In this document: piece after piece, positions 11,701-51,616 of the stretch
Position numbering within the stretch: the stretch's first letter is position 1
Layout: every line of letters begins with the position of its first letter
NCBI RefSeq assembly: GCF_000233955.1
Contig: NZ_JH376581.1
Coordinates: 62,001-126,000, forward strand
DNA length: 64,000 nucleotides
DNA from: Paraprevotella clara YIT 11840
Lineage (GTDB): Bacteria; Bacteroidota; Bacteroidia; Bacteroidales; Bacteroidaceae
Direction of reading: 5' to 3'
The notes under the pieces: generated by a model
Seen by the model: only the letters and a program-made list of their open reading frames with translations
The model's database searches: none
What the model was told of the DNA's origin: nothing
Translations under genes and position numbers: made by a program

Positions 11701-11788
11701 TTCTGCGCCAAACGATTTTTCGTTCTCAGCCAAACGATTTTTCAATCTGCGGCAACTGATTTTCGACTATGAGGAACACGGTTTTCAC
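11701..11788. repeat. array of 22-bp repeat units (copy C), four units
   Basis: Four consecutive 22-base units begin at 11701, 11723, 11745 and 11767. The first two are close copies with the core CCAAACGATTTTTC; the third is diverged (GGCAACTGATTTTCGA) and the fourth weak. The same unit with the same period occurs at 34491-34578 and 51421-51508. Unlike those, this copy has no recognisable terminal inverted repeats. It occupies the 414-base divergent region 11613-12026 between the hybrid regulator and the rightward operon; apart from the regulator's -7 box I see no other feature there and no strong TAnnTTTG for the rightward genes. Confidence 0.7.
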
Positions 11789-12026
11789 CCCACATAAGTG
11801 AACCATTTTTGCCTTTATTGAACTATAATCTTCCTCAGACGATATTAGATTGAATTTTGTCCTAATCTGAATAAAAATCGTCCCTTACTCATTTTATTTT
11901 TTATGAATTTTGCATCAGAAAAAAGCAAGAGTGAAAGAAACAGGTAAAGTTTTGCCAGGTATAAAAGATGTTTTCAGAATAATGCTTTACCAGATGTTGT
12001 ATATGTATGATTAAAAAAAATAGAAT

Positions 12027-13466
12027 ATGAAAAGAAATTATGTAAAAGTCATAGCTGCTGTAGTGGGAATGACCATGGTGTACTGCCCGCTTACGCTCAA
12101 TGCCAAGTCGAAAAAGAACGCCACAGCCGCCCCGTCGGAAATCGCCATTCACGGATATGGAGAGACTGCGTCGTTCACCGTAGATTCCAGAAATCTGCGT
12201 TCGGACGAACCCATCCTGATTTCTGCAACAAACGGATTTGAGGTTTCTCCCCGCGAACTTTCTCCTAACAGCAAGGGTACAGTGACCGTGAAACTGATAA
12301 GTTCCAAACAACAAACCACAGGGAAGGTAATCCTTCGCAGCGGTGACACCCGTTATTATGTCGCTGTCAAAGGAGCCGGAAAAGCACTCCCTGTCAAAGA
12401 CTTATCCGCCACTCCCACCTACCAAGGAGGCGAAGAGGAAAATTTTGAAAAAGCATTCAATCCGTCTGCCGACGGATACACGATAGAATTCAAGGTGGCG
12501 ACACCTACGGATGGAGATGAATTTTATCCTTTCGCCATCGATTCCCAAGGCAACGGCTTTAAAAGTTATGTCTCTTCCACCGCTTTCGGTTTATTCCATT
12601 CTACTTCCAAAGCGGACGGTTTCACAAACCCGTCGACCAACGTAACCGGAGGACGAGGCAAATTCTACAACAACGATGGCAAAGCACATACCTATAGAAT
12701 TGCCGTAATGCCGGACAACCGCGCGTTCTTCTATCGCGACGGCATAGCCGTGGACACAGTACGTCTGCACGACTACGGATTGCAACCCGACTTTGCCACC
12801 GGCAATGGAGAACTAAAGGAAAACCTGCTGAAGAATCCGGGATTCGAAGGGGAATTCGAAGTTTTCGGTATTAAAAATGCAGAAGACGTGGCCAAAAGCA
12901 TAGAAGGCTGGTATATAGACATACACGACTATTGGTGCAGCCAACAGTTTATCCTCCCGGAAGAAATAGACAACACGGTCGACGTGGACAATCACATCGC
13001 CAAAATCGTACCCTATATGTGGGCCAACGGTTGGGGCAACGGCAATATCAACCAAATTGTCGACGTGGCGCCGAATGAAACCTACACGCTCACGGCACTG
13101 GCCAAAGGCGGAATCCGGGAAAAAGAGGGAACCTTAGCCGCCACTATGTTTATTGAAGAAATGCAAGACCGTGAGAAAAGAACCAAGGTGGAAATTGCCA
13201 GCGATTCATGGGAGACTTACTCTTTGGACTATACCACCTCTCCCGATTGCCGTCAAATCCGTGTCGTCTTCCAGACCGAATCCGGAAAATGGGGCGAACA
13301 CAGAAGCCCGTTCGAGATAGACAACGTAAAACTGACCGGAGTATCACGCCAATATACCCCCAAAATCGGCTTCATCAACCATAATGCCAAGGTGGAATAC
13401 TTCACATTCGATACCACCGGGGCATACGCTCCGGCATCTCCTGAAATTACGGTAAATATCAACTAA
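12027..13466 (+). CDS. secreted carbohydrate-binding-like protein of the PUL, no catalytic domain recognised
   Basis: This 479-residue protein begins with a signal peptide (MKRNYVKVIAAVVGMTMV...LNA). Residues about 30-120 form an Ig-like beta domain (ISATNGFEVSPRELSP, then GKVILRSGD). About 130-260 look like a concanavalin/LamG-type sandwich (YTIEFKVATP, HTYRIAVMPDNRAFFYRDG). About 270-450 resemble a CBM4/22 or galactose-binding jelly roll (LLKNPGFEGEFEVFG, YTLTALAKGG, IRVVFQTESGKW, FEIDNVKL). It is the first gene of a four-gene rightward run, 14 bases before the GH43 gene. A role in holding the polysaccharide is inferred from the folds and context; domain names are by eye. Confidence 0.72.
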   Translation: MKRNYVKVIAAVVGMTMVYCPLTLNAKSKKNATAAPSEIAIHGYGETASFTVDSRNLRSDEPILISATNGFEVSPRELSPNSKGTVTVKLISSKQQTTGKVILRSGDTRYYVAVKGAGKALPVKDLSATPTYQGGEEENFEKAFNPSADGYTIEFKVATPTDGDEFYPFAIDSQGNGFKSYVSSTAFGLFHSTSKADGFTNPSTNVTGGRGKFYNNDGKAHTYRIAVMPDNRAFFYRDGIAVDTVRLHDYGLQPDFATGNGELKENLLKNPGFEGEFEVFGIKNAEDVAKSIEGWYIDIHDYWCSQQFILPEEIDNTVDVDNHIAKIVPYMWANGWGNGNINQIVDVAPNETYTLTALAKGGIREKEGTLAATMFIEEMQDREKRTKVEIASDSWETYSLDYTTSPDCRQIRVVFQTESGKWGEHRSPFEIDNVKLTGVSRQYTPKIGFINHNAKVEYFTFDTTGAYAPASPEITVNIN

Positions 13467-13480
13467 CCTGCAAACGAAGC

Positions 13481-14914
13481 ATGAAGAAACTGTTTTTGTT
13501 CATCGTAGGTTTGTGGACATGGCATACCCACTGTCCGGCACAACTTGCCCAATTCCATCCGGGCGAAGTATGGAACGACACTGAAAACGCCCCCATCAAT
13601 GCCCACGGAGGCTGCGTAGTGTTCCACAATGGCACATACTATTGGTTTGGCGAGGATCGTACGAAATTCGAATCGAACGGTGTCAGTTGCTATTCTTCCA
13701 CAGACCTCTACAACTGGAAACGTATCGGACTGGCATTGAAAACCGACGGCCAACCCCGTGAAGACTTGAACGACATCTCACAAGGCCGCCTCTTTGAACG
13801 CCCGAAAGTCATATACAACCCGAAGACCCAAAAGTGGGTGATGTGGAGCCATTGGGAAAAATCGAGCAGCGACTATGGTGCCGCACGGGTATGCGTAGCC
13901 ACGAGCGACCGAATCACCGGTCCTTACACGCTCTACAAGACGTTCAGACCGAACGGAAACGAATCGCGCGACCAAACATTATTCGTGGACAGCGACGGAA
14001 AAGCTTACCATATCTGTTCCACCGAAATGAACACCAACACGAACATCGCCCTCCTGCGTGAAGACTATCTGGAGCCGGAAGGCACAAATCAGCAAGTGTT
14101 GAAAGGGCAGAAATGCGAAGCGGCAGCCGTCTTCAAATGGAACAACCGGTATTTCGGTCTGTTTTCGGGTTGCACCGGCTGGGCTCCCAACCCGGGACGG
14201 CGCGCCTACACGGACAACCTCATGGGCGAATGGCAACGCAACGGCAATTTTGCCATCGACAAGATGAAACAAATAAGTTACCGTACGCAACCGTGTTACG
14301 TCTTCCAGTTGGAAGGCAAAAAAGATGCATTCATCTATATGGGCGACCGTTGGAATCCCAACGATGTGGAACATTCCACTCATGTCTGGTTACCGGTCAG
14401 CATGCGTTCGGGTTATCCTGTCGTCCGCTGGTACGACCAATGGGACTTGAGTATCTTCGACAAAATGTACCGCTATAAACAAGCTGCGGAAATCGTGCCG
14501 GGAAACACTTACGCCTTATTGGAACAACAGGCAGACCGGCTCGTGTCCAAACCTGCGAACGGTTTCACCCTCGCTGACGACAACGACGAAATCAACCTGA
14601 ACTTTGTATTCTTGCAAACCGAAAGTCCGGACGTGTATAAGTTAAAAGACACCAAAAGCGGCAAGCTCCTGACCAACACGTTCGGTTCCTTACGCCTGAA
14701 TGCCGAAGCTACAGACGGCAACAGTCAAAAGTGGAAATTCATCCGACAAGCAGACGGATTCTATCGCATACAAAGCATGCAGGACCAGAAGTTCATCTCT
14801 GTTTCGGGCAATAATACTTTCGAAGGAACTCCTTTATACCTCACGGAAAACGGAGAACCTCACTATTTCGGAGTTTACTTCGATTCAGACAAATATTCAT
14901 ACAGGGCATCTTAA
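13481..14914 (+). CDS. GH43-family glycosidase with C-terminal ricin-like domain
   Basis: This secreted enzyme has 477 residues: a signal peptide ending at CPA, a five-bladed GH43 propeller (about 25-335), and a ricin/CBM13-like beta-trefoil (about 345-477, SGKLLTNTFGSLRLN, SQKWKFIRQADGFYRIQS). The propeller start is VWNDTENAPINAHGGCVVFH, followed by YYWFGED and GVSCYSSTDLYNWKR. This type resembles GH43 subfamilies 24 and 34, which include exo-beta-1,3-galactanases and beta-galactosidases. In the galactanases I recall, the usual catalytic Asp base is absent, and here too INAHGG stands where other GH43 proteins have it. It closely resembles the gene at 59848-60882. Exact specificity is not certain. 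Confidence 0.88.
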   Translation: MKKLFLFIVGLWTWHTHCPAQLAQFHPGEVWNDTENAPINAHGGCVVFHNGTYYWFGEDRTKFESNGVSCYSSTDLYNWKRIGLALKTDGQPREDLNDISQGRLFERPKVIYNPKTQKWVMWSHWEKSSSDYGAARVCVATSDRITGPYTLYKTFRPNGNESRDQTLFVDSDGKAYHICSTEMNTNTNIALLREDYLEPEGTNQQVLKGQKCEAAAVFKWNNRYFGLFSGCTGWAPNPGRRAYTDNLMGEWQRNGNFAIDKMKQISYRTQPCYVFQLEGKKDAFIYMGDRWNPNDVEHSTHVWLPVSMRSGYPVVRWYDQWDLSIFDKMYRYKQAAEIVPGNTYALLEQQADRLVSKPANGFTLADDNDEINLNFVFLQTESPDVYKLKDTKSGKLLTNTFGSLRLNAEATDGNSQKWKFIRQADGFYRIQSMQDQKFISVSGNNTFEGTPLYLTENGEPHYFGVYFDSDKYSYRAS

Positions 14915-14953
14915 ACTATTCAATAAAAACACTTGAAATTAGGTTAATGTTGT

Positions 14954-14990
14954 TAAGTGCGTATCCGTGACGGCCTCGCACTTACTTTCT
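14954..14990 (+). terminator. intercistronic hairpin, possible partial terminator
   Basis: A perfect 8-bp stem TAAGTGCG/CGCACTTA (14954-14961 with 14977-14984) encloses an inner CCG/CGG pair and is followed by CTTTCTTT. It lies between two genes of the same run, so it may reduce rather than stop transcription or stabilise the upstream message. Confidence 0.5.
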
Positions 14991-15036
14991 TTAAAGAGAC
15001 AAGCAATCAAATTACAAACCGTTAAATATTTATCAA

Positions 15037-17742
15037 ATGACACTCAAAAAATCATGGATGAGGAACTATATTATAGTAACGTTCCTGTTATGTCCCCCTT
15101 TACAGGGCATGGCCTCCCCCGATGACACCAAGGGAGAAACCGTGGTCATAGGTACTGTGGTCAACCAACTTCCCGCATTGCCATCGAGCATTCAACTCGG
15201 TTCGGACAGCCTGCCGGTAAAATGGGACAAAACCAATAAGAACCAGTTCAATACCCCATTCGACAAGACGGTCGTAAAAGGCGAAGCAGACCGAAAAGGT
15301 ACAAAAATACCAGTAACTGCCGCCGTATGGACTTTGCCGGAGAACTTGGTTTACCTTATCGACGCAGGCCGTGTCGCCCCTCATTCCTCCCAAATATTCG
15401 AAGCTGCCAAGTCCCTGCGTGGCGAGGCTTTACTGAATGACGCCCCGGACCGTAAATTCCATTCGGGCACTGACCAATGGGGATATGTGGAACGCGAACA
15501 ATATGAGGACCAGAAGGTATATGTCACAGCCGGAAATGGGGATGACTGGGCAACCTCATTCCTCAGCGACGGTAAAGATAAAGACGAAGGACTGACCTAC
15601 AAACTGACCTTACAACCGGGAGTATACAGAATCAGAGTCGCACACGTTCCGATTATCAAATTAAACTTCACCAGTTATCTCAGAGTAGATCAAAAGATTG
15701 TCAACACCCAGCAACTGTCTACCAACGTATCCGAAGACAAGATACACCCAGCCGTATGGGTAACTCACGATCTGAAATTGACGCACCCCACAACTTTCAC
15801 CTACGAAAGTAACAAGATAGGCGGAAAAGAATGGGAAAACGGCAATATCAGCCTGATTTCCGTAGAGCAAATCAGTGCCAACTTAGAAACACCCATCATT
15901 TCCTGGGACGGCGGTTCGTGGGATAGCCAAACCGTAGAATTAAAACACAAGGACCCTTCTGCCGAAATTTACTATACGCTCGATGGCAGCCAACCGGACA
16001 AAAACAGCCATAAATATATTGCTCCGTTCACGATCGACAAAACGACAAGAGTCAACGCCATTGCTTACAATGCGGAAGGCGCCAGTAAAATAGTCTCGGC
16101 AGATTTTGCCATCAGTACATGGGCCGTCACTGCCACCCCATTCAAGTTAATCGGCGAAAACGAAGTGAAGAACGTAAAAATCAACTGGATGCAAAGAAAT
16201 GACGCAGACGTGTACAAAATATTTCGAAACGGAACCTTGATTGGGGAGACCCGGGGAGACACCTACGATGATTACGGGTTGTCTTTAGGGGAAAATTATA
16301 CCTATCATGTAGAAGGCTACAAAGAGGGTCGAAAGATAGCCACATCGGAATCGCAGTCGGCCATGCCTTTCAGCCCTTCACAAGATTGCGACGTGTACGA
16401 CAACCGCAACGGTCAATATCTGAAAAATAGAGAAGGTGGCATCTCCGGGATGAAAATAGGAGACCTTTATTTCTCTTACCGGCTGGAACGGAAGAAAAAA
16501 ACTGTAGATGGACAGGAAAAAGACGGTTGGTTGCTGTCAGAATCTTATTCCACAACAGGAAAGGAAGGAAGTTGGAACAGTCCACGCGAGATAGCTTTCT
16601 ATCCCAATGTAAATTTCGAGGGTATAGGATTCCGTTACAACGAAAAGACCCGTAAAGTCGTATTGTCCGCCCATTATGAAGATCAAGGCGGATATACCGC
16701 AGCTAAAATATTCTTGGCGCAGATAACCCCGAAAGGCGGTATCGAGGTCGGTACGATGGAACGACCTTTAGGTTACGATTCCAGAGACCAATCGTTATTC
16801 GTGGATGACGACGGTAGCGGATACCTCTTGTCTGCCACCAATATGAACAGCGATATCCACATCTACAAACTGGACGAGACATGGACCAAACCGGTAGAAC
16901 TGGTCAATACGATATGTAAAGGGCAACATCGCGAGACCCCATCCATCATCAAAAAAGACGGAGAATACTATTTCTTCAGTTCCAAAGCGTCCGGATGGTA
17001 TCCCAGCCAGGCCATGTATGCCTCGGCGGAAAATTTGGGTGGGGTATGGACTTCATTACGGGAAATCGGTAACAACTCTACTTTCGGGGCACAGTTCAAC
17101 AATATCCAAAGAAGAGGCACAAACCACGAAACATTCGGCGTGTGGAGCTACCATTGGGGCGCCCAGTACCACCATAAAGACCCGGACGGGAATTTCCCGA
17201 GAATATCCGTAGCCAAATTCAACAAAGGCTATGCTTCCATGGATTATTACCGTTATATCGAATTTCATGACTCATACGGCATTGTCCCCGTACAAAACGG
17301 CAGGAACCTTACGCTTAACGCACTGGTCTCTACCACCACGGTTGGTGCCAATCCTCATACGGCATCCTGCATCACGGACGGAGCCGACATGAATTCTTCC
17401 GTTTACTTCCAGAACAGTACGTACCCGTATGTCCTGACCATAGATATGCAAAAAAAGGCCAAGATATCGGAGCTCAACTTGTCAACCAAATTGGTCAACG
17501 GCTCGGAAACGGCATATAAATACACGATCGAAGGGAGTGTGGACGGCGAACACTTTCAAACCTTGGTAGACGGAACGGACAACTGGCAAGTAGGTTTCCA
17601 GATACTCCCTGTCACGGACTCGTCGGCTTACAGATACCTCAGGTTAACGGTACTGAGAATCATCAATGTGCATAACAATAATCCGGCCACCTGGGCCGAT
17701 GGTGTCTATGAGCTCACCGCATACGGTATGCCCGTAGAATAA
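15037..17742 (+). CDS. large secreted multidomain GH43-like protein with CBM32-type C-terminus
   Basis: This protein has 901 residues. After a signal peptide (IIVTFLLCPPLQGMA) there is a jelly-roll domain (about 120-280, YKLTLQPGVYRIRVAHVP), a chitobiase-type C-terminal fold (about 285-360, AEIYYTLDGSQPDKNSHKY), a fibronectin-like segment (about 365-445), a five-bladed propeller (about 450-740, VDDDGSGYLLSATNMNSDIHI, ETPSIIKKDGEYYFFSS) and an F5/8-type (CBM32) domain (about 760-900, YKYTIEGSVDGEHFQTL). The propeller matches the GH43 clan in pattern, including DSRDQSLFVDDDG, which parallels SRDQTLFVDSDG in the GH43 gene before it. Catalytic activity is likely but not shown. It sits between two hairpins in the rightward run. 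Confidence 0.78.
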   Translation: MTLKKSWMRNYIIVTFLLCPPLQGMASPDDTKGETVVIGTVVNQLPALPSSIQLGSDSLPVKWDKTNKNQFNTPFDKTVVKGEADRKGTKIPVTAAVWTLPENLVYLIDAGRVAPHSSQIFEAAKSLRGEALLNDAPDRKFHSGTDQWGYVEREQYEDQKVYVTAGNGDDWATSFLSDGKDKDEGLTYKLTLQPGVYRIRVAHVPIIKLNFTSYLRVDQKIVNTQQLSTNVSEDKIHPAVWVTHDLKLTHPTTFTYESNKIGGKEWENGNISLISVEQISANLETPIISWDGGSWDSQTVELKHKDPSAEIYYTLDGSQPDKNSHKYIAPFTIDKTTRVNAIAYNAEGASKIVSADFAISTWAVTATPFKLIGENEVKNVKINWMQRNDADVYKIFRNGTLIGETRGDTYDDYGLSLGENYTYHVEGYKEGRKIATSESQSAMPFSPSQDCDVYDNRNGQYLKNREGGISGMKIGDLYFSYRLERKKKTVDGQEKDGWLLSESYSTTGKEGSWNSPREIAFYPNVNFEGIGFRYNEKTRKVVLSAHYEDQGGYTAAKIFLAQITPKGGIEVGTMERPLGYDSRDQSLFVDDDGSGYLLSATNMNSDIHIYKLDETWTKPVELVNTICKGQHRETPSIIKKDGEYYFFSSKASGWYPSQAMYASAENLGGVWTSLREIGNNSTFGAQFNNIQRRGTNHETFGVWSYHWGAQYHHKDPDGNFPRISVAKFNKGYASMDYYRYIEFHDSYGIVPVQNGRNLTLNALVSTTTVGANPHTASCITDGADMNSSVYFQNSTYPYVLTIDMQKKAKISELNLSTKLVNGSETAYKYTIEGSVDGEHFQTLVDGTDNWQVGFQILPVTDSSAYRYLRLTVLRIINVHNNNPATWADGVYELTAYGMPVE

Positions 17743-17763
17743 ATCCTATCCAAATAGGACAAA

Positions 17764-17800
17764 GAGAGTGTGTCTATAACACACTCTCCATTCATTTTTA
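17764..17800 (+). terminator. hairpin after the large GH43-like gene
   Basis: A perfect 10-bp stem GAGAGTGTGT/ACACACTCTC (17764-17773 with 17779-17788) is followed by a T-rich tail (CATTCATTTTT). It lies 21 bases after the stop codon and 25 bases before the next start. Confidence 0.65.
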
Positions 17801-17813
17801 ACAAAACATAAGC

Positions 17814-19940
17814 ATGATGAACAAATATTTTTATAAGCCATACATGGCAGTCGTTTTATGTGTACTGTCAGTCAATCCTTCCGTCCAAGCTGACGAACAC
17901 GGTATTCATATCAAAATCAATACCCAAACAGGCGCTATAAACCAGCTTATCCTCGACCACGATCCTCAAAATATGAATTGGATACTCCAAACGGATGGTA
18001 GCCAATATCCTTGGATAACCGAAAAATACGGTTGGGGGCTGGGATATCTCACCCTTGAGAGTGAAAATAAAAAAGTAAAATACGAATGGAAAAAGCCTGT
18101 TTCCACATCTCCCACATCTTATACTCCGTGGGATAAAAAAATATCCTCTTTTGAGCAAACACAGGTCTATCGGGTGGGAAACATACGAATAGATGTGAAA
18201 CGTTCACTGGACCATGACCGATTAACCGAGCGTTACACCTTTACCAATACCGGCCAGACATGTACACGAATCAGCGATATCGGTATCTATACTCCTTTTA
18301 ACGACAATTACCCCGATGCAACGACTTGTATTCATTCACGTACCCATGCCCATATTTGGGACGGTGAAAGTGCAGCATACGTCAATGCGCTGCGCATGGG
18401 TGGTACAGCGCCACATCTCGGACTGGTATTAACCGAAGGAAGTATCAAAAGTTACGATATCTTGGAACGAGGCATAGATAAAGGAAACTCTCATACTCGT
18501 GGAGTCATAGCACTCAATTTACCTGATACGTTACTTCAATCCGGAAGTTCCTATTCCATCCAATGGTCTCTCTTTCCACATCTCGGAAATGAAGATTTTA
18601 AAAACAAATTGCTTCAGCAAGGAAGTGTATGGATGTCATGCAACAAATACATGTTTGAAAAAGGAGAAAAAGCCGAAATCGAACTCCGTAGCCAGTATCC
18701 ACTGAAAGATGTCAAACTTCTGAAAAACGGTAAACCCATAAAGATAAAACAAAAAGGCCGTGTCTGGAAGGCAGAAGCCATCATGGAACAACCGGGGGAA
18801 GTCCGCTTTGAAATCCTGTACAACAATGGCCGACGTACGCATGCCGACTGTCTGGTACATTCTTCTTTCGATAAATTAATAGAGAAACGCACGGAGTTCA
18901 TCCGTACGCACCAGCAAATGAACGATACAAACGATATGCGATACGGTGCTTATATGGTATACGATAACGAAGCTAACCGTATTTATAAGAATGACACTCC
19001 GAACTGCAACCCGGTAGACCGCGATGAAGGAGCAGAACGCCTCGGAATGGGTATTTTATTGGCAAAACAATACTTGTTAACCCATAAACCCGAACTGAAA
19101 GAATCACTTCTAAAATATGTCCATTTTGTTCGTGAACGCCTACAAACGGAAGATTATACGACCTATTCCAGTGTTGACCAAAAAGGACGGAACAGGGGAT
19201 ACAATTACATGTGGGTAGCCGAACTATATTTCCAAATGTATAAAGTGACAGGCAATAAACAATATGCTATCGATGGCTACCAAACCTTATGTTCCATGTT
19301 CCGGCAGTTCGGTTACGGTTTTTATGCCATTAATATTCCGGTGTGTCTGGGACTGCAATCACTGAAAAAAGCCGGTATGACAAATGAGTATGAGCATCTT
19401 AAAGACGAATTTATCAAAAGCGGCGATGTCTTCGTTAAAAACGGAATGAATTACCCTAAACATGAAGTGAACTACGAACAAAGCATTGTGGCTCCCGCCC
19501 TACAATTCCTCCTACAACTATACATTGAAACAGGTATCCGAAAATACTTCGACGAAGCCCAACGACAATTACCAGTATTGGAAGCCTTTAACGGTTGTCA
19601 ACCTAGCTATTATCTCCATGACATCAGCATTCGCCATTGGGATGGTTACTGGTTCGGCAAACGGGAACTCTTTGGCGATACGATGCCGCACTATTGGAGT
19701 ACGATTACGGCCGAAGTCTTTCATCTTTATGCCCAATGCACGGGGAAGGCTGCTTATCAACAACGTGCAGAAGAAATAGTCCGTAACAACCTCTGTCTAT
19801 TCTTCGAAGATGGCAAAGCCTCCTGTGCCTATGTTTATCCACACGAAGTAAACGGAATAAAAGCACAATTCTATGACGAATATGCCAATGATCAAGACTG
19901 GGCATTAGTACACTACCTATTGGTGAACAAGGGACTTTGA
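17814..19940 (+). CDS. secreted (alpha/alpha)6-barrel glycan-active protein
   Basis: This is a 708-residue protein with a signal peptide (MAVVLCVLSVNPSVQA). Residues about 25-270 form a beta-sandwich (HIKINTQTGAINQLILDH, RYTFTNTGQTCTRISDIG). An Ig-like strand set follows at about 275-350. Residues about 370-705 are helical repeats typical of six-hairpin glycosidases (DRDEGAERLGMGILLAKQYL, RGYNYMWVAELYFQMYKVTGNKQY, HEVNYEQSIVAPALQFLLQLYIETG, DGYWFGKRELFGDTMPHYWS). This layout is shared by GH154-type glucuronidases, PL27-type lyases and related families, several of which act on arabinogalactan. I cannot assign the family. It closes the rightward PUL run. Confidence 0.72.
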   Translation: MMNKYFYKPYMAVVLCVLSVNPSVQADEHGIHIKINTQTGAINQLILDHDPQNMNWILQTDGSQYPWITEKYGWGLGYLTLESENKKVKYEWKKPVSTSPTSYTPWDKKISSFEQTQVYRVGNIRIDVKRSLDHDRLTERYTFTNTGQTCTRISDIGIYTPFNDNYPDATTCIHSRTHAHIWDGESAAYVNALRMGGTAPHLGLVLTEGSIKSYDILERGIDKGNSHTRGVIALNLPDTLLQSGSSYSIQWSLFPHLGNEDFKNKLLQQGSVWMSCNKYMFEKGEKAEIELRSQYPLKDVKLLKNGKPIKIKQKGRVWKAEAIMEQPGEVRFEILYNNGRRTHADCLVHSSFDKLIEKRTEFIRTHQQMNDTNDMRYGAYMVYDNEANRIYKNDTPNCNPVDRDEGAERLGMGILLAKQYLLTHKPELKESLLKYVHFVRERLQTEDYTTYSSVDQKGRNRGYNYMWVAELYFQMYKVTGNKQYAIDGYQTLCSMFRQFGYGFYAINIPVCLGLQSLKKAGMTNEYEHLKDEFIKSGDVFVKNGMNYPKHEVNYEQSIVAPALQFLLQLYIETGIRKYFDEAQRQLPVLEAFNGCQPSYYLHDISIRHWDGYWFGKRELFGDTMPHYWSTITAEVFHLYAQCTGKAAYQQRAEEIVRNNLCLFFEDGKASCAYVYPHEVNGIKAQFYDEYANDQDWALVHYLLVNKGL

Positions 19941-19948
19941 TTTGAAAA

Positions 19949-20007
19949 AAACGAATGACACAATAGAGGAAGAATTTGGTTTATCTTATCTGCTGTGTCA
20001 TTCGTTT
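19949..20007. terminator. bidirectional terminator between convergent genes
   Basis: A perfect 14-bp inverted repeat (19949-19962 with 19994-20007; arm AAACGAATGACACA) surrounds a 31-base AT-rich loop between the converging glycosidase and FKBP genes. A and T runs flank the arms, so it can serve both directions. Confidence 0.6.
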
Positions 20008-20035
20008 ATAAGGATTATATATTTCAACATACTTT

Positions 20036-20698: not shown

Positions 20699-20723
20699 TA
20701 ATGTCTGTCTTTTTTAGGCAGGG

Positions 20724-22265: not shown

Positions 22266-22297
22266 ACTCTATTCGTAAAATATTGATAAATCTTTCG

Positions 22298-22336: not shown

Positions 22337-22366
22337 CGTTAAAATAGATATATAATCGACATAAAT

Positions 22367-27080: not shown

Positions 27081-27162
27081 GCGCCTGTGGTGAAATTGGT
27101 AGACACGCCAGACTTAGGATCTGGTGCTTCGCGGCGTGTAGGTTCGAGTCCTATCAGGCGCA
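27081..27162 (+). tRNA. tRNA-Leu, anticodon UAG
   Basis: The acceptor stem GCGCCTG pairs with CAGGCGC at 27155-27161, followed by discriminator A. The anticodon arm CCAGA-CTTAGGA-TCTGG gives anticodon TAG. The T arm has GGTTCGAGTCC. A variable arm (GCTTCGCGGC) fits a class II leucine tRNA. The CCA end is not encoded. Its 3' end is one copy of the direct repeat that bounds the island to the right. Confidence 0.95.
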
Positions 27163-34354: not shown

Positions 34355-34378
34355 TTATGGACATCAAAAGCCTCTCTC

Positions 34379-34715
34379 CTCCCTACCAGAGTTTTCCCAA
34401 AAACACCTTTCATCTTTCAGGCTGTATGACAAGTCTCTTATTACCTTGTAGTTACAAGCTGAAAGATGTTCCAAACATCCTTCAGCTATGCTTCATTTCG
34501 TTCTGCGGCGAACGATAAATCGTTCGACTGAGAACGGAAAATCGTTTGGCTGAGAATGATTTATCGTTCGGCTGAGAACTTTTTACCGCCTTCCGCAATG
34601 AAAGGAAGCTGAAAGATGGACTCCTTATCCTTCATTCCGTAACACATTATATGAAAGCCATTTACCATACATCCTGAAAGATGAAAGGTGTTTTTGGAAA
34701 AACCTTGGTAGGGAG
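34379..34715 (-). repeat. 337-bp element with 43-bp terminal inverted repeats (copy A)
   Basis: The left end (34379-34421) and right end (34673-34715) are inverted copies differing at only about three of 43 positions; the inner 25 bases, ending CACCTTTCATCTTTCAGG, are identical. The element has no transposase or other gene. It contains the 22-bp array at 34491-34578. Its reverse complement aligns along its length with the element at 51288-51616, for example GGAATGAAGGA, CATCTTTCAG and GGTAAAAAG in the same order and spacing. This is the structure of a MITE-like, non-autonomous element. No clear target duplication is visible. Confidence 0.8.
34491..34578 (-). repeat. array of 22-bp repeat units (copy A), four units
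   Basis: Read on the minus strand, units begin at 34578, 34556, 34534 and 34512, each 22 bases. Three begin TTCTCAG and all carry a GAACGA or AAACGA core; the last begins TTCGCCGCAGAACGAAATG. The first and third units contain their own inverted parts (CGAACGAT with ATCGTTCG), so neighbouring units can also pair. A 22-base period is not a multiple of three, so this is not a coding repeat. Confidence 0.85.
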
Positions 34716-34839
34716 AGAATGAAGAAGGAGGATACCTTCATACGGCTTCTGCCATTCAAGTGTATCCTCCTTATTTACCAACCGGCTTGACTTCCGTAAG
34801 CCCAATCCGGCTCGCCTATGCCCAATACCGGGAGCAGCC

Positions 34840-38164: not shown

Positions 38165-38177
38165 CTCATCCATACGG

Positions 38178-38185: not shown

Positions 38186-38207
38186 CGACAAAAAAGGCTG
38201 CTTTTAG

Positions 38208-40955: not shown

Positions 40956-41024
40956 CATTTGGGTTGCTTGTGCCTTTACAGCAAGCCTGCCCTGATTATT
41001 AACCTGATTTTATAAACGAAACGC

Positions 41025-42446: not shown

Positions 42447-42452
42447 ACAGAT

Positions 42453-43679: not shown

Positions 43680-43704
43680 ACAAAAGGCATACGGAAAAAC
43701 CGAA

Positions 43705-43752
43705 ACAATCCCCCGGTTGCACCACTGTGCATTCCGAGGGATTGTCTTTTAA
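43705..43752. terminator. terminator between converging genes
   Basis: ACAATCCC (43705-43712) pairs with GGGATTGT (43738-43745) with extra CGG/CCG pairs inside, followed by CTTTTAAAAT. It lies between the DUF4861 gene and the oppositely oriented lipoprotein gene. Confidence 0.65.
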
Positions 43753-43766
43753 AATAAAGATATTGC

Positions 43767-44933
43767 TTATTGGACGGCCGTCACCCAAGCGTCATTCAAC
43801 CAAGCGAAAGACAAATCACCGGCCACATCGTCCCACGTCGTGGCTATCTGGGCGTTTTCAGCATTGCCTTGTCCAGCGAGGAAATTGGCCGAAAGATATT
43901 TTCCACCCGTCACGTCGTTCTTCAACACGCCTGCAATCTGTACATTTTTCAACACGGAAGTACCGTTGGCCAAAGCATCGTCGGTCTGCGTCGTTTCAAT
44001 AGTGAGCGGATTGGGCTTGCCCGCTACCTTCGCGCCGTCGATATTAGCCCGTGTACCGGCACGCAAACGGATGCCGCGCTTGTTCTCGCTGCTGCCGTTG
44101 CCCACCAAATAAAGGTTGCGCAAAGTGGGGTGAGCCACCGGAGTTGCGTCGAAATTGTCGCCGTTGTTGTCGGCTTCAATCAAACAGTCGCAGGAAGCAT
44201 CGGTCTGGTAAGCCACAAGGTTGGTAGCCGTGCCGCTCCAACCTTCTGTCCAGTCGAAACTATCGTCCGTGCAATCCACTACTACGCAATGGTCTACATT
44301 CACCGTACCGCCAAAGAACTCCAAACCGTCATCGGCACCTACGTAAGTCTGCACATACGACACCTGAGTTCCGGCACCCACACCGTAGAAAGAAATGCCG
44401 TTGGACTCGTGTTCGTCATCCAGAGCAAAACCCGTATATTCCAAACGTATATACTTCAACACACCGGAATTATCATTGGCATCATTGCCGCCATAAGCGG
44501 CATTACCGATTTCAGAAAAGCCCGAACCCGCATTGGTGGGAGCATAACCGCAGATGTGCAAACCGCCCCAACCACCGGCAGTCTTATTTTCGGCCGTCAT
44601 CACGATAGGATTTTCTACTGTGCCCACTGCATTGATTTTGGCTCCTTGCTCGATCAGGATGTAAATAGGATCTTCGCTGTCGGCTGCCGTTATCTTCACA
44701 CCTTCTTCGATGGTAAGTACGGCGGGCGCCTTTACCTGCAACTGACTGGTCAGTTTGTACTCCGTATTGGCCGTGAGGGTCATGTTTTCCGTCACGATGC
44801 CGCCCAGGTTTTCAACACTCGGAGCGGGAGGCGGTGTAGTTCCGTTCTCGTCGTCATTACAAGCCGTAAACACAGCCATAGAAGCGCACAGAGCCATAGC
44901 CCACGTGGAAACTTTCATGAAATTTGTTTTCAT
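43767..44933 (-). CDS. beta-helix-like surface lipoprotein partner of a TonB receptor
   Basis: The protein has 388 residues. The signal peptide ends in the lipobox VFTAC and is followed by a proline-rich linker (GTTPPPAPS). The body has features of a right-handed parallel beta-helix: VLTIEEGVKITA, IEQGAKINAVGTVENPIVMTAE, GWGGLHICGYAP, LKYIRLEYTGFA, YVQTYVGADDGLEFFGG, VDHCVVVDCTDDSFDWTEGW. Acidic turns suggest metal binding. It starts 53 bases after the TonB receptor gene stops, on the same strand, so it is probably that receptor's surface partner. Some databases name relatives as transporters, which the sequence does not support. Confidence 0.72.
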   Translation of the reverse strand: MKTNFMKVSTWAMALCASMAVFTACNDDENGTTPPPAPSVENLGGIVTENMTLTANTEYKLTSQLQVKAPAVLTIEEGVKITAADSEDPIYILIEQGAKINAVGTVENPIVMTAENKTAGGWGGLHICGYAPTNAGSGFSEIGNAAYGGNDANDNSGVLKYIRLEYTGFALDDEHESNGISFYGVGAGTQVSYVQTYVGADDGLEFFGGTVNVDHCVVVDCTDDSFDWTEGWSGTATNLVAYQTDASCDCLIEADNNGDNFDATPVAHPTLRNLYLVGNGSSENKRGIRLRAGTRANIDGAKVAGKPNPLTIETTQTDDALANGTSVLKNVQIAGVLKNDVTGGKYLSANFLAGQGNAENAQIATTWDDVAGDLSFAWLNDAWVTAVQ

Positions 44934-44985
44934 CTTTCTCTCTTTTTAAAGTTTTGAATTGAATTAATTTATGCTTTTACTACTT

Positions 44986-47679
44986 TTATAATGTATACGT
45001 CACTCCGAAGCTCAACCCCACACCTTCGTTAAAGCGCTCCACTTCCACCTCGGTATTCTTACTCGGTATCTCCTGACGGAACACCACATCGGTATTCAAA
45101 AGATTCTTGGCCGAGAACTTCACGCTCCAATGAGCGTTGAACTTCATATTGGCATTGAAATCCAACGTATGGAGAGTGAGTTGCTTCACATCGCCGATAC
45201 CCTGTATACCCACAGCCTGTATGCGCTCGCCTTGCAAGTTGTAGAGCAAGGCCACGGTGAGCTGGCTTTCCTTTCCGAACTTAGGCGAATAGGTGAGGTC
45301 GGCATTCATCAGGTAGGGCGACGCACCTTGCAGCGGACGTTCGGCATTGGTGTAAACCCCACCTTCCGGAAGGTTTACGTTGGTGTACATGTAGGACGCG
45401 TTGATTCCCGCTTTCAAGTCTTTCACTATTTCCTTGCGTGCTTCCACTTCAACCCCTGCTGCCAAACCGTCGGACGCGTTCTGGAAAGAATGCATCATGG
45501 CTCCGCCGGACGTTGTTTGCGTACGCTCGATAGGACTGTCCAAATACTTGTAGTAGGCCGTGACGGCCACCATGTCGGTGGACGACGGACGAAAGAACTC
45601 ATAACGTAAGTCTATGTTGTAGTTGTAACCGTTGTCCAAGTTTTCATTACCACGTACTTGGGTGCCGCCATAAGACTCCTGATAAAGGAAAGGAGCCATC
45701 TCGACAAATGAAGGCCGTGTCACCGTACGCGAAGCCGCCAGACGCAAGCTGTTTTTCTTGTCGAACGTGTACTTAAGATTCAAGGCCGGGAAAAACTCAT
45801 CGGTGTTCAGGTCGCGCCGCATCTCCATGCCGCCGTCGTTATAGTATTTCACCCACTGACGCGTGCTTTCCATACGTACGCCCAAGTTCACCAGCAAGGC
45901 CTTCACCGGATAATAGTCGGCCTCGATGAAACCGGCCCAGATGCGGCTACCGGCTGAGTACTCATTGCGTTTCTGATGGCTGCGGTTGATGGTAATGCTA
46001 CCGTTCTGCACGTTCTCGAAGTTCAAGTAACCGTCGGTATGATAGATGTCGGTCACATTAAGAGATTCCATCTCTTTCAAGTTATAATAGAAGCTCGTGC
46101 AGGTAAAATCCCTCGTCTTGTCACGCAAGGCCGCACCGAACCTCAACTTGTTTTCATCGGAAAAGCGGCACTGCGCCTGTACGTCACCCACCCATTCGTC
46201 CTCGTCCAACTTGCCGAAATAGCGCATGGTTTCCTGAGCATTGAGCTTGAACAAATCCCAAGTACCGTCGGACATCTGCCGGAACATCACCTGACGACGA
46301 TCGGGTTCCTCACTGGAAGTCTTGCTATACGAACCGCTCCAATCCGTATCCCACTTGCCCAACACGTGGTGCCCAGCCAACTGGTAATTCTGCAATTCAT
46401 ACACATGGCTGTTTTGGTTACTGCCTTTCAAGCGGATGCCTTCCTCGTCATGCCCTTGACGCGCCATATAGCTGTCCACCGCATTACGGGCATAAAAGGC
46501 CGAAAAGCCCACACGGTCTGCCTTGCGGAACGAATAGCCCACACTGGCCAAACCGGCCATCTTGAGCGTTTGGATAAAAGAATCGTAATCAAAACGGCTC
46601 ATCTCCGTACCTGACGCCTCGAAAGTGCGGACATAAGCATTATCCAGACTTTCGTTGTCGGTATCAATACCGAAAGTAGCCAACACATCCATCTTGTTGC
46701 GCCCCAACCGGAAAGTGCGGCCGAAACCGAAACTACCGTTCAAGTCGGGTAGAGCAGAAGACTTATTCACTTCGAATGTGGTGGGGAAGATATTATGATT
46801 GCGACTGTACTGCCGGTAATCGGAAAGCGGCAAATCCATGGCCTTCCGGTCCATAGAAGGAGTCTTGAACATCGTATTCGCCCTATCCATCTGATAGAAG
46901 TCGCCAAAGACCGTCCCCACCTTACCGCCGGTACCGAAGGATACGTTGAAAAAATCCTTCGTGCCGCCCTCTTTGGTACTGATGTCCACATGGGCACCGG
47001 AATAGTCGGCAAACGCACTGGCCTCGTACACCTTGCTTACCGTGATGTTCTGCACGGCGGAGGAAGGAAAGATGTCCAACGGTATCAGTTTGTTATCCGG
47101 GTTGGGTGAAGCGATGGGAAGCCCATTGAGCGTGGTGGAACTGTAGCGGTCACCCAAACCGCGCACAATCAACTGGCCGGCTTCGGCGATGGAGATACCG
47201 GTAAGTTTTTTCACTCCTTCTTGTACGTTGGAAATACCTTTGATAGACATTTCGCTTGCGCCAAGGTTTTCAATGGAAAGCACCGCGTTCTGGCGTTCAG
47301 CCAGCAAGGCACGCTCCAACTCCAAGTTCTTGCGCGCGGTAACGGTCACTTCGTTCAGTTGTTTGTCATCAGTAGACATCTCGACCTTCACGGCCACATC
47401 ACCCTTGACCGGGACCTGCAACGTCAGTTTCTGGGGGAAAAACGAAACGTATGAAACCTCCAAGGTATAGGTTCCCTTCTTCAATCCACGCAAATGAAAA
47501 TTTCCATTGATGTCGGCCGTAGTGCCGATGCGCGTACCGGCGATGCGCACGGAAGCCCCCATCAGCGGTTCGTTCATTTCCTTGTCGATGACCACGCCCT
47601 TGATGTCGCCTGCCTGGGCTACCGCCACGACGGCGGTCATCAACGCTACAGTCAAATTACACTTTTTCGATAAACTCAT
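44986..47679 (-). CDS. TonB-dependent receptor with carboxypeptidase-like regulatory domain
   Basis: This is an outer membrane importer of 897 residues from MSLSKKCNLTV. A signal peptide is followed by a regulatory beta-sandwich (IKGVVIDKEMNEPLMGASVR, TTADINGNFHLRGLKKGTYT), the plug (LSIENLGASEMSIKGISNVQ, IVRGLGDRYSSTTLNGLPI) and a beta-barrel ending VGLSFGVTYTL. It is not of the SusC type, since there is no SusD gene; its partner is the lipoprotein that follows. The frame is open to 47718, but a -7 box lies at 47704-47711, so the start is 47679. The ligand is unknown. Confidence 0.92.
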   Translation of the reverse strand: MSLSKKCNLTVALMTAVVAVAQAGDIKGVVIDKEMNEPLMGASVRIAGTRIGTTADINGNFHLRGLKKGTYTLEVSYVSFFPQKLTLQVPVKGDVAVKVEMSTDDKQLNEVTVTARKNLELERALLAERQNAVLSIENLGASEMSIKGISNVQEGVKKLTGISIAEAGQLIVRGLGDRYSSTTLNGLPIASPNPDNKLIPLDIFPSSAVQNITVSKVYEASAFADYSGAHVDISTKEGGTKDFFNVSFGTGGKVGTVFGDFYQMDRANTMFKTPSMDRKAMDLPLSDYRQYSRNHNIFPTTFEVNKSSALPDLNGSFGFGRTFRLGRNKMDVLATFGIDTDNESLDNAYVRTFEASGTEMSRFDYDSFIQTLKMAGLASVGYSFRKADRVGFSAFYARNAVDSYMARQGHDEEGIRLKGSNQNSHVYELQNYQLAGHHVLGKWDTDWSGSYSKTSSEEPDRRQVMFRQMSDGTWDLFKLNAQETMRYFGKLDEDEWVGDVQAQCRFSDENKLRFGAALRDKTRDFTCTSFYYNLKEMESLNVTDIYHTDGYLNFENVQNGSITINRSHQKRNEYSAGSRIWAGFIEADYYPVKALLVNLGVRMESTRQWVKYYNDGGMEMRRDLNTDEFFPALNLKYTFDKKNSLRLAASRTVTRPSFVEMAPFLYQESYGGTQVRGNENLDNGYNYNIDLRYEFFRPSSTDMVAVTAYYKYLDSPIERTQTTSGGAMMHSFQNASDGLAAGVEVEARKEIVKDLKAGINASYMYTNVNLPEGGVYTNAERPLQGASPYLMNADLTYSPKFGKESQLTVALLYNLQGERIQAVGIQGIGDVKQLTLHTLDFNANMKFNAHWSVKFSAKNLLNTDVVFRQEIPSKNTEVEVERFNEGVGLSFGVTYTL

Positions 47680-47703
47680 TCTTATGCCTCTTTTTGTTCG
47701 CTG

Positions 47704-47711
47704 CAAAAGTA
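47704..47711 (-). promoter_or_regulatory. -7 box of the TonB receptor operon
   Basis: On the minus strand this reads TACTTTTG, 24 bases before the start at 47679, matching TAnnTTTG. It decides against the longer reading frame. Confidence 0.55.
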
Positions 47712-47841
47712 GGCACATTACATTTCAAAAAGCTTACAAAAAGATGAATCTTCTGAGACAATACCTCATCGTAACATGTTCTTAATGTACGCGAAACAAC
47801 TTCGTATCCGAATCTTACAAATCATTTCAGGATGCGAATCT

Positions 47842-49305
47842 TCACCACTCCATCAAACCCTTGATTCCCCTTCGGGTCAGTGTGATCCGAAACCTGCGAT
47901 AACCGGTCTTGCCCTGATAACGATAACGCATGACGAAATGGACATAATAAACCTTCTCGGCTGCCTGCGTGTGAAACTCTCCTTTCCCTTCATTCATATA
48001 AACCGGGACATGAGGACTGTCCATCCGCCGCAAGAAATCCCGCAGGTTGATGCGGATGATATCATTAAACCCTTGCAACGGGTAATGACTCAAAAGTTTC
48101 AACTGCTTATCCAATATGGAAATACGGCGGCGGTACACGATGACCGTCTCCCGCAAAGCACAATGACCGGCCTCCAACTCCGACACACGGCCACGCTGCG
48201 CACGCACTTCGAGCGGCAATTTTTCTTCGTTTACAAAATCACATCCTTCCTTTCCCCATCCCACCGGCTCTCCGTGCATCACCAGTTTGATTTTATAGTC
48301 GTAGAACTTACTGCCCAACTTGTTGGCGAACCAATAATGCATCAGGTCCTTGATGCGGTCTTTGAACATATAACTCACCACCAATGCAATGAAAAGCGGC
48401 ATGGTGAAATTCCCGTAGGTCTGCTGGAAGGAAAAAGAAACGACCGTGGCAAAAACCATGCTCAGCCCGGCCGCCAACATGAAAAACACTTGCTGAAGGA
48501 CGAAAGTGTTGCTTTTCTTGTCTGCCAATATATACAAATCGCTCTCGATGTACTTCTTCAGTTGCCCGGCCCTGTGCAGGAAATTACGGTTATTATCACT
48601 GTTGCCTTCCTCCGGCAACAGAAATCCCCGCTCTCGCTGGTAAGCCAAATCCCCATCTATATAGGTTGCCGCAGCCGCCACCACACGGGTATAATCCTTC
48701 GGAAAATGCTCGCGTGCATATTCCATGACGCGGAACAAATGCATGTTAACCATACGGCACAGATACTCCTCTCCCAAATCGTAACGCGACCGCAACTCGA
48801 AAGCCACACGGTCTAAACCGGCTTTACGGGGTATCTCCCGATAAGCAGCCATAATGCGCGCCAACAAAAGCACAATGCCGTCCAGACGAACCCTGAACGC
48901 GTTCACTTCCGTTTCGCGATAAAGTCCGACGGCTGCCGTACGCAAAGCACTACGCGTGATACTGCCGAACATCTTTATCTGGTGTTCATACGTTTTTTCA
49001 TGCTCTTCCGAAGGCTCCTCCGCCAATTCGCGACAACACATCAGCAACCGCGACAAAGGCAGGGCTTCTTCGTCGGCCACCTCCTCTAACGTATAAACCG
49101 GCGTAATCAGGCGCACCAAAGCCCGGAAGTCCCGGTAGAAATTACTTTTGGGATACGTTTTGGCGTTGATATAAAGGGAATCGGGAATGAAGATCCACGT
49201 ATCCATCATGAAGTCGCTCACCGCAGCCGAAGGACTGTAGCGCGAATACCCCACCTTGAATTCCAGGGTATAACGGTCGTGTATCTTTCCATGAATCTCC
49301 AACAT
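47842..49305 (-). CDS. unknown membrane protein with two central helices
   Basis: I do not recognise this 487-residue protein. Residues about 1-250 are soluble, acidic and helical (VYTLEEVADEEALPLSRLLMCCREL, YDLGEEYLCRMVNMHLFRVMEYA). Two hydrophobic helices follow near residues 275-300 (QQVFFMLAAGLSMVFATVVSF) and 305-322 (FTMPLFIALVVSYMF) with a short turn, so both large ends face the same side, probably the cytoplasm. The C-terminal part is basic (YYVHFVMRYRYQGKTGYRRF, TLTRRGIKGLMEW). There is no signal peptide. It stands alone on its strand between other transcripts. Confidence 0.8.
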   Translation of the reverse strand: MLEIHGKIHDRYTLEFKVGYSRYSPSAAVSDFMMDTWIFIPDSLYINAKTYPKSNFYRDFRALVRLITPVYTLEEVADEEALPLSRLLMCCRELAEEPSEEHEKTYEHQIKMFGSITRSALRTAAVGLYRETEVNAFRVRLDGIVLLLARIMAAYREIPRKAGLDRVAFELRSRYDLGEEYLCRMVNMHLFRVMEYAREHFPKDYTRVVAAAATYIDGDLAYQRERGFLLPEEGNSDNNRNFLHRAGQLKKYIESDLYILADKKSNTFVLQQVFFMLAAGLSMVFATVVSFSFQQTYGNFTMPLFIALVVSYMFKDRIKDLMHYWFANKLGSKFYDYKIKLVMHGEPVGWGKEGCDFVNEEKLPLEVRAQRGRVSELEAGHCALRETVIVYRRRISILDKQLKLLSHYPLQGFNDIIRINLRDFLRRMDSPHVPVYMNEGKGEFHTQAAEKVYYVHFVMRYRYQGKTGYRRFRITLTRRGIKGLMEW

Positions 49306-49316
49306 AATATTACGGA

Positions 49317-49324
49317 CAAATCTA
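49317..49324 (-). promoter_or_regulatory. -7 box just before the unknown membrane protein gene
   Basis: On the minus strand this reads TAGATTTG, matching TAnnTTTG and ending only 11 bases before the ATG at 49305. If used, the leader would be only about five bases. Confidence 0.35.
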
Positions 49325-49380
49325 CGAAAAAAACATCAGAATGCCACATTCACACCTCTACATATTAAGGAAAAAGAACT

Positions 49381-51063
49381 TTATTTCACCACATATATCT
49401 TGCTTCCCTTCAGTTTATCGTTTTTTCTGATAATATATATTCCCCTTGGCAGCTCATCCATACTTGAGATTCCATACAACCTCACACCGTGCAAAGTGAA
49501 AATCTCAACGTTTTCCTGTACGTCCGGAAAATCAATTCCTATTTCCCTTTTTGACAGATTACTATCATAATCATAGTAGAAACGTTTCGTTCCGGAACCA
49601 TAATTATTGTCCAAGCTAACATCAATCCATAATTGACTATATTTAAACGCATTGGGTACATGTATTGTAGTTTGACCAGAACCTTTGATGTCAAATAACA
49701 TGGCAGCCCCACCTTCATTACATACAGTCAACACCCCATTGTCACTCCCTACATAACTAAGAGTAATATCAAAACTGAAATAATACGGATTTTCCGCATC
49801 CTGCACATTAGCGATTTGATAGCCCAACACAAGGGGATGGGCATCCAGAAAAACGGGATAGCTTACTGAGGCTCCATCGTTTGTTTCGCATATGACCCTC
49901 CCCTGTTGACACTGGAATTTATCCAAATATTCATCCCCTTTTAGGGTAGACGGGATGGTAAAACTTCCTCCCGTACCTTGGGCTTGGTCTACATACGCCC
50001 CACTATGATTATTGTAAAGCTGGTATTTCCATCGAGCATTAGTGATAGGGGTTCCATCTTGACCGGAAGCCTTGAATATGTGTCCTTGATAAACACTCCC
50101 GTAACCATAAGTATCCAGACTGCTGCCATCGAGGGAAAGTTCATGGGGCTTCACCTCCCATCCTATCGCGGAAAGGGCATCAAGCGTTTCCGGATTTATG
50201 GGCAAAAGTTTGGTTTTGTCCTGATAAGGATAATTCATCAAATTGTCTTTCTCTAAAGAGAAATAGCATCCACTCCGATAGAGGACGAATCCCTGTGAAT
50301 TGCTGTACAATCTCTGTTTACCACCCGGAAGATTAAGATACAAGTCTTGCACAAGGAATGCCTCAATGGCTTCGGAAGAACCAAAACCAGCCAAAGAACC
50401 CAATGACAGATTGTCGGCATTTACAATGAGATTATCAAACAAAGAAGCTGTATTAGGATTTGCAAAATTTATTCCCGTACCACTTTGTACGATAGAAGTA
50501 CCAAACCCTAATATATGAGCCAAATGCCTCGTCAAAGCTGTGGTCAGGTTATCATAACCGAACTCCAACTCATTAGCCCAAGAGGAATTCCAATAAACAT
50601 AAGCATTAATATCTATAGTAGTAACTTCGTCCTTTCTTTGGAACTCTATCTGGTTGAGTAAATTTAATGGTGCACAGTTTCTATTTCTGTCCAACGCATA
50701 TTCCACCGTGGTTTGTATTTCCACGTCCAGCGACATATTTTCATTAAACGTAACCTTAAATCGAACAGGCTCCTTAATATTCAGTTGTTCTTCCCATACA
50801 TCCATAGCCATCATAAGACAATGTTCCACCCCGATAGTCATATACGGGCTTACGGGCACGGTTGCCAAAATGTTCCCCTGCCTCGACCTCAGTTCATAAG
50901 TCTCCCCTTCCACTACAGTTTCTACCAACGGTTGGGGTGCGTATGCACTATAATTGTTCCCCACACTGTCCACATACGTTACTTTATAGGTTTCTTCTGT
51001 CTGCCCTATAGCCGTAGAAGACAAGGAAAACAACAAACCCAAAATACTTAAAATACACTTCAT
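49381..51063 (-). CDS. secreted metalloprotease-like protein with a lost HExxH motif
   Basis: The protein has 560 residues from the signal peptide start MKCILSILGLLFSLSSTAIG. Residues about 70-300 resemble secreted zinc peptidases of Bacteroidota: a segment TTIDINAYVYWNS, then ALTRHLAHILGFGTS, and further on NLMNYPYQ and ETLDALSAIGWEV. Where active enzymes read HExxHxxGF, this one reads RHLAHILGF (Arg169, His170, His173), so two of the key residues are missing. Beta-rich domains follow, and the end (FTLHGVRLYGISSMDELPRG, then YIIRKND) is a type A sorting domain for type IX-style secretion. It is probably a non-catalytic relative with a binding role. Confidence 0.75.
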   Translation of the reverse strand: MKCILSILGLLFSLSSTAIGQTEETYKVTYVDSVGNNYSAYAPQPLVETVVEGETYELRSRQGNILATVPVSPYMTIGVEHCLMMAMDVWEEQLNIKEPVRFKVTFNENMSLDVEIQTTVEYALDRNRNCAPLNLLNQIEFQRKDEVTTIDINAYVYWNSSWANELEFGYDNLTTALTRHLAHILGFGTSIVQSGTGINFANPNTASLFDNLIVNADNLSLGSLAGFGSSEAIEAFLVQDLYLNLPGGKQRLYSNSQGFVLYRSGCYFSLEKDNLMNYPYQDKTKLLPINPETLDALSAIGWEVKPHELSLDGSSLDTYGYGSVYQGHIFKASGQDGTPITNARWKYQLYNNHSGAYVDQAQGTGGSFTIPSTLKGDEYLDKFQCQQGRVICETNDGASVSYPVFLDAHPLVLGYQIANVQDAENPYYFSFDITLSYVGSDNGVLTVCNEGGAAMLFDIKGSGQTTIHVPNAFKYSQLWIDVSLDNNYGSGTKRFYYDYDSNLSKREIGIDFPDVQENVEIFTLHGVRLYGISSMDELPRGIYIIRKNDKLKGSKIYVVK

Positions 51064-51287
51064 ATCTCCTCCCTCCATCAATTATTTGTAATATCTTACA
51101 TTAAAATACGACCTATTTTACAAACAATCCAAAGATAACAACTTTTTGGAATAAAAGGCACAAATAAATACAGAAGATACTTTTTCAATATCATTATTTT
51201 TTTGTAGCCCCTCATCTGCAATGTCATGAACATTCATTACCACCATAAGCCATTAGCCGAGATGCCTCCACACCTCGCATGCTTCCC

Positions 51288-51616
51288 CTCCCAAGGTTTT
51301 TCAGAAAAGAGCCTTCATCTTTCAGGCGGCATGCCAACCACCTATCAAATAGCATGTTATGGAATGAAGGACAGAAAGGCCATCTTTCAGTTTCCTTTCA
51401 TTGCAGAAAGCGGTAAAAAGTCCTGTACCAAACGAAAATTCAATCTCAGCCGAATGATTTTTCAATCTCAGGCGAACGTTTTTCAGTTCTGCGCCAAACG
51501 AAATGAAGCCTGGCTGAAGGATGCCTGAAACGCCCTTCAGCCTGTAACATCAATATTATGAACGGATTACCATGTAACCTGAAAGATGAAGGATCTTTTT
51601 TGTAAAATCCCGGTGT
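51288..51616 (+). repeat. about 329-bp element with terminal inverted repeats (copy B)
   Basis: The ends, about 51288-51326 and 51578-51616, are inverted copies; the inner 15 bases (CCTTCATCTTTCAGG) are identical and the outer parts have drifted. It aligns with the reverse complement of the element at 34379-34715, with the same internal order and nearly the same length, and holds the 22-bp array at 51421-51508. A 100-codon frame (51226-51528) crosses it, but the corresponding frame in the other copy has stops. It fills most of the 749-base gap 51064-51812, in which I see only the Nudix promoter besides. Confidence 0.75.
51421..51508 (+). repeat. array of 22-bp repeat units (copy B), four units
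   Basis: Units begin at 51421, 51443, 51465 and 51487, each exactly 22 bases. The middle units start ATCTCAG, the last TTCTGCGCCAAACGAAATG. The last unit is nearly the same as the last unit of the array at 34491-34578, and its first half matches the first unit at 11701. Confidence 0.83.

Follow-up and report, generated by a model that had tools for sequence, protein, structure and literature searches.

Two kinds of described repeat come closest to the family reported here. BrickBuilt, a MITE of Porphyromonas gingivalis, is built from a 23-nt tandem unit and has 19 copies with 1 to 22.8 units (PMC4596501). Its short units follow each other without spacers inside an element with a leader, a tail, and inverted ends. 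The copies are intergenic, long stem-loops are predicted for them, and 3 of the 19 have neither leader nor tail. REPs carry a GTAG or CGTC tag and, with BIMEs, form many intergenic palindromic repeats with both unit orientations and mosaic clusters (PMC3733652). Template switching between short inverted repeats leaves an inversion of the spacer and homogenisation of the arms (PMC8604942). It is described there as a general mutation process in yeast coding DNA, without being proposed as the way in which a family of dispersed repeats evolves.

The Paraprevotella family described below resembles BrickBuilt in having a leader and a tail around a spacer-free intergenic array, and its arrays without arms can be likened to the three BrickBuilt copies without leader and tail. 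Both hosts belong to the order Bacteroidales. However, the unit is 22 bp throughout, compared with 23 nt, and there are 149 listed sites with 2-6 units and a wide minimum spacing, compared with 19 copies of 1 to 22.8 units. The 12-nt BrickBuilt ends are GAGACCTTTGCA / TGCAAAGGTCTC, whereas the element ends here have TTTTGCAAAA and lack GAGACC, as judged by eye only. As the BrickBuilt unit is published as a figure, the two systems are set beside each other by description. Unlike REP/BIME, the family is found without a Y1 (RAYT) transposase, and its units are longer and strictly periodic. Because the BrickBuilt period and the RAYT of the REPs were both looked for and not found, we file the family as a member of neither. 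A RAYT is today not obligatory for every REP family. The family is best described as built like BrickBuilt and probably working like a mosaic palindromic repeat. Its members resemble mosaic repeats already known and are spread between the genes with unusual evenness. Among the literature matches listed, we found no description of this family in Paraprevotella; preprints and most subscription papers were outside the scope of the search.

Arrays in the window

The window is the whole 64-kb stretch that was analysed. A first-pass annotation, made from its letters only, had reported three distant sites with an exact 22-bp step, and these are borne out (Table 1). A window-wide profile scan with filters off gave the three arrays at E 4.2e-21, 1.1e-19, and 1.2e-15, although these arrays are themselves among the 33 rows used to build the profile; all other matches under E 0.8 were fragments of the same three, the only arrays of the window. 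Tandem Repeats Finder called a period of 22 at 34498-34579 and 51439-51485 and none at 11701. The core alone, with 3 mismatches allowed, had 20 matches compared with 13.2 expected, and 5 of 100 shuffles were equal or above, which is weak evidence. The Rfam search of the window at gathering scores left the arrays unmatched, its sole match being a tRNA elsewhere.

The surroundings of the arrays had also been described as diverged. This is wrong for two of the three sites: at 34.5 and 51.4 kb, the array sits in the middle of one of two homologous ~330-bp elements with inverted-repeat arms, and only the site at 11.7 kb is bare.

Table 1 Features of the repeat family in the window (window positions)
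Feature	Position	Strand	Remarks
Array without arms	11700..11787	+	Four 22-bp units, three of them clear and the last degenerate (by eye); array also at the orthologous place in G014
Full inverted-repeat element	34379..34715	-	Missing from the orthologous G014 place
Four-unit array, centre of the 34379..34715 element	34492..34579	-	
Outer inverted-repeat arm pair	34379..34439 with 34655..34715	.	61 nt, 85% complementary
Full inverted-repeat element, approximate ends	51285..51615	+	Also at the orthologous G014 place
Four-unit array, centre of the 51285..51615 element	51420..51507	+	
Outer inverted-repeat arm pair	51297..51333 with 51571..51607	.	37 nt, 84% complementary

The unit and its copies in the host genome

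Each unit consists of a 14-bp core of two half-words and an 8-bp A/T linker, for example GTTCTCAGCCGAAC + GATTTTTC. The core words vary widely inside one genome and between species. The linker is one of a few A/T words, in two orientations, and the units abut; as unique spacers are absent, CRISPR was rejected. A coding role was rejected as well because three does not divide the period. A crude ORF call places an ORF of at least 90 aa across 22 of 98 sites; most of these overlaps are probably spurious.

The host, a Paraprevotella close to P. xylaniphila, has a genome of 4.23 Mb in 165 contigs. The genome-wide motif search proposed with the first-pass annotation was run and gave many further copies. 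The array profile has 157 matches, and the 150 listed merge to 133 sites. Ten weaker sites from gap scans and six from a second model bring the listed sites to 149; a few of the ten are doubtful by eye, and some sites will have been missed, as the profile search rates only the best initial candidates. A further 60 loci were fetched from the 92 remaining sites, mainly the stronger ones.

The number of units is not fixed at four, as had been proposed, but ranges from 2 to 6 and is mostly 3 or 4, with a count that tolerates one failing unit per run. Among 25 full elements, 15 have three units and 10 have four, while the 73 other sites have 2, 3, 4, 5, and 6 units in 1, 24, 40, 6, and 2 cases, respectively. 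These two classes were set by the first BLAST, and two sites classed as other (L098 and L094) have element ends.

Inverted-repeat elements and folding

In about two dozen copies, the array forms the tip of an imperfect palindrome of ~330 bp; most of the other sites lack arms, and many of these are strong predicted hairpins on their own. Genome matches to the 34.4-kb copy have 67-78% identity over most of the element, and the arms of 23 aligned copies contain very few indels. The end-to-end distance in 24 pairs is 254 (8 pairs), 273 (1), 276 (12), 298 (1), or 299 bp (2). Since 23 of the 24 pairs are at 254, 276, or 298-299 bp, element length is quantised by the number of 22-bp units.

The consensus fold predicted from 23 full elements is a single long hairpin (four helices, 48 pairs) that has the array at its apex. 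In this model, 94.3% of the cells are paired, compared with 92.8 ± 0.4 in shuffles and at most 53% in slid versions. The 28 double-changed cells (shuffles: 15.6 ± 3.8) and the covariation score of 0.126 (shuffles: 0.103) were each reached in 0 of 500 shuffles, although kinship of the copies alone can lift covariation above shuffles without structure. Two weaker measures, pairs with a double change (9 vs 6.6; 27 of 500 shuffles equal or above) and further pair types (29 vs 26.9; 53 of 500), are unremarkable. For this covariance check, pair counts and shuffles replaced the suggested R-scape.

The arrays outside full elements fold far better than shuffles: the median folding z of 73 such arrays is -4.3 (70% under -2), compared with -0.2 for 196 nearby control stretches (3% under -2) and -0.9 for 25 arrays inside full elements (28% under -2). 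Arm pairing and array folding support the earlier preference for structure over coding; the fixed four units and the diverged surroundings of two sites are not supported. Inside the arrays, the two half-words of one core are equal in 4 of 394 cases, compared with 66.0 ± 6.5 expected. Adjacent cores are inverted copies of each other in 22 of 197 cases (12.5 expected, p 0.003), whereas half-word matches facing across the linker (39 of 197; 35.1 expected) are not above chance and whole-word matches (7; 12.5 expected) are under it.

Distribution and change between species

An exact 27-base element pattern was found in P. xylaniphila YIT 11841 only, in four stretches, within a genome collection from which the host genome is possibly absent. 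Model R1 with strict filters matched 3 of 18 same-genus genomes, host included, and 0 of 43 others. Model R2, run on 41 genomes with only one further genus member among them, matched the host and gave one weak match in one other genome. A phage or plasmid origin was set aside, as one 20-base pattern had no exact match in viral contigs and one full element had no match in plasmids.

In the P. xylaniphila genome G014, the full element query gives 11 matches of 234-355 bp and many array matches. Of 40 fetched G014 loci, 31 match a fetched locus of the host genome. In at least 20 cases, the match spans the array, and orthologous arrays are mostly kept in place. A comparison of 27 orthologous places, made up of 25 of the 40 loci and two sites of the window with partial matches excluded, gave 88.5% identity for the arrays (2,723 columns) and 82.0% for the flanks (13,717 columns), and the array is more alike than the flank at 22 of the 27; as the flanks mix coding and non-coding DNA, this is no neutrality test. 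Three spacer inversions, 16-20 bp long, were found in the 27 arrays and none in the flanks; two of them are exact, and the third has one mismatch. The share of substitutions that lie in clusters is not raised in arrays (137 of 313; flanks: 1,458 of 2,466).

G015 is a third, more distant species with an incomplete genome. It has 78 matches to the array model, and the full element query finds three short array matches there, with the arms absent. Predicted folding is weak for some of its arrays (to -15 kcal/mol, without shuffle control). Six of 20 fetched G015 sites have a syntenic host locus, and in two of these, genes are matched on both sides of the shared array. For 5 of the 6, the stretch that seems to correspond in the host has an array, L022 being the least certain; at L216, the genes match on both sides, yet no host array was seen. 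Independent gain in one gap may be an alternative to shared arrays.

The five syntenic G015-host array pairs have scores of 14-18, no closer than random G015-host pairs (19.2 ± 5.5, n 204), and G015 arrays are alike among themselves (34.5 ± 9.9, n 136). This points to a species dialect of units, based on five cases at loci mostly picked for having arrays. For the host and G014, syntenic pairs reach 71.7 ± 20.8 (n 16), compared with 25.8 ± 9.0 for random pairs.

Spacing and gene context

The 149 sites give 119 within-contig spacings with a median of 20.3 kb, a CV of 0.60, and 1 spacing under 7 kb. Uniform placement gives a CV of 0.925 ± 0.069 and 30.0 ± 4.3 spacings under 7 kb, with a minimum of 16 in 5,000 runs. 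When sites are placed in random intergenic gaps (113 spacings then known), 24.9 ± 3.9 fall under 7 kb, with a minimum of 13 in 2,000 runs, compared with 1 observed. The sole close pair, 3,419 bp apart on contig C21, comes from the match listing. In G014, 0 of 49 spacings are under 9 kb among the matches listed. Around 98 sites (524 kb scanned), the nearest 2.5-3 kb or so are free of further arrays. Distances of 3-7 kb were scanned directly in the window and 392 kb of gap pieces, where the nearest pair is 7.4 kb apart and one member is very weak. These spread-out positions, the 22-bp length steps, and the higher identity of arrays than flanks at 22 of 27 places are signs of constraint, in line with the selection on the arrays that the first-pass annotation had suggested.

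Neighbouring sites are randomly oriented (40 of 89 alike). Among sites without ORF overlap, 25 of 76 lie between convergent genes, compared with 10 of 68 control gaps (p 0.012). The share between divergent genes is no lower than in control gaps (16 of 76 sites, 15 of 68 gaps), and median distances from called genes are 110-242 bp. At L111 and L126, the array comes directly after an apparent terminator hairpin, as seen by eye.

Possible origin and function

The arrays form a large intergenic, often foldback family with unit-quantised length. Close species keep them at the same places, their spacers have been inverted, their units follow a species dialect, and the sites keep clear of each other. 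Our preferred reading, to which we give about an even chance, is a family of foldback mosaic repeats that probably act on DNA topology or at transcript ends. Template switching between short inverted arms would rewrite the arrays where they stand, and copying between arrays may provide a second route. A REP/BIME-like role seems the most likely one, with the arrays as structure-forming intergenic sites that may affect supercoiling or transcript ends; such a role would fit both the avoidance of close neighbours and the excess of convergent genes. We consider rather unlikely a stronger version, in which about one foldback array per 20 kb evenly punctuates the chromosome and marks the borders of supercoil or nucleoid domains in Paraprevotella, with the position selected, the sequence free, and the arrays renewed in place by template switching and copying into species dialects. 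If the spacing is functional, chromosome domains in Bacteroidota could be approached through their sequence. With or without such a function, inversions and a dialect at about 150 sites would record how template switching and concerted rewriting proceed in nature.

A selfish, non-autonomous, BrickBuilt-like inverted-repeat transposon, which we regard as unlikely, would have mobile full elements and arm-less remains as the other arrays, and its wide spacing would come from target immunity or from the selective removal of copies that lie close together. As in MITEs, the ends are inverted repeats and the copies are many, and of the sites classed as bare, at least one has both ends and another has one end (L098, L094). 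At the only presence/absence site, window 34375-34781 (BLAST) corresponds to 3 bp in G014, which lacks the element. However, no target duplication is seen, and about 65 bp beyond the element are missing in G014 too, so loss in G014 is as likely as insertion in the host. A parent was not found either. PF01797 is absent from the host, G014, and G015 (it occurs in 1 of 18 genus genomes), which rejects a RAYT system, and PF01609 is absent from the host in a search that was positive in 9 of 14 control genomes; the transposase search covered these two families. No longer element with the same ends was found in the host genome, and a repeated gene beside L013, L017, and L021, at first suspected to encode a transposase, does not seem to do so when its translation is read by eye. 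G015, with array matches and no arms, argues against this transposon as well.

In another reading, a sequence-specific chromosomal protein would bind the arrays, with an asymmetric 14-bp core every 22 bp (about two helical turns) across the chromosome. This would suit the exact period, the almost complete lack of equal core halves, and the avoidance of close neighbours, but the wide variation of core words within the genome and between species and the random orientation of neighbours make it improbable. Quite improbable, too, are transcript-end hairpins alone (terminators or RNA stabilisers) or arrays that merely result from replication errors at old palindromes. A minimum spacing of several kb is expected from neither version, and the divergent-gene share equal to that of control gaps and the distance from genes do not favour them, whereas the convergent-gene excess, the arrays behind apparent terminators, and the strong predicted hairpins do. 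Long, nearly perfect stems are predicted at L087, L121, and L131.

Unit sequence and spacing of the arrays

The two 7-bp halves of the array core hardly ever carry the same word: genome-wide, identical halves were observed in 4 of 394 cores, against 66 expected. In the more distant, incomplete third-species genome (G015), the units of the arrays at loci L188-L203 and L207 form a species dialect, with CTGCGGAGAAAAATTT as an example of a recurrent unit sequence. The array sites listed for contigs of the window's own genome (e.g., C21 and C23) and for the close relative P. xylaniphila are overdispersed; gaps between neighbouring sites are mostly 10-40 kb, and only one spacing among those listed is below 7 kb.

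Neighbouring features

Three full elements (L013, L017, and L021) each lie directly past the C-terminus of one common repeated gene family. At L111 and L126, what appears by eye to be a terminator hairpin is followed at once by the array. The P. xylaniphila genome is without both the full element at 34.4 kb and its adjoining hairpin. Against Rfam, the window gave a single match, the tRNA gene.

Features located in the window
Feature	Position	Remarks
Hairpin, T-rich end	34716-34781	GGAGGATAC...GTATCCTCC; adjoins full element
tRNA gene	27081-27162	Rfam match
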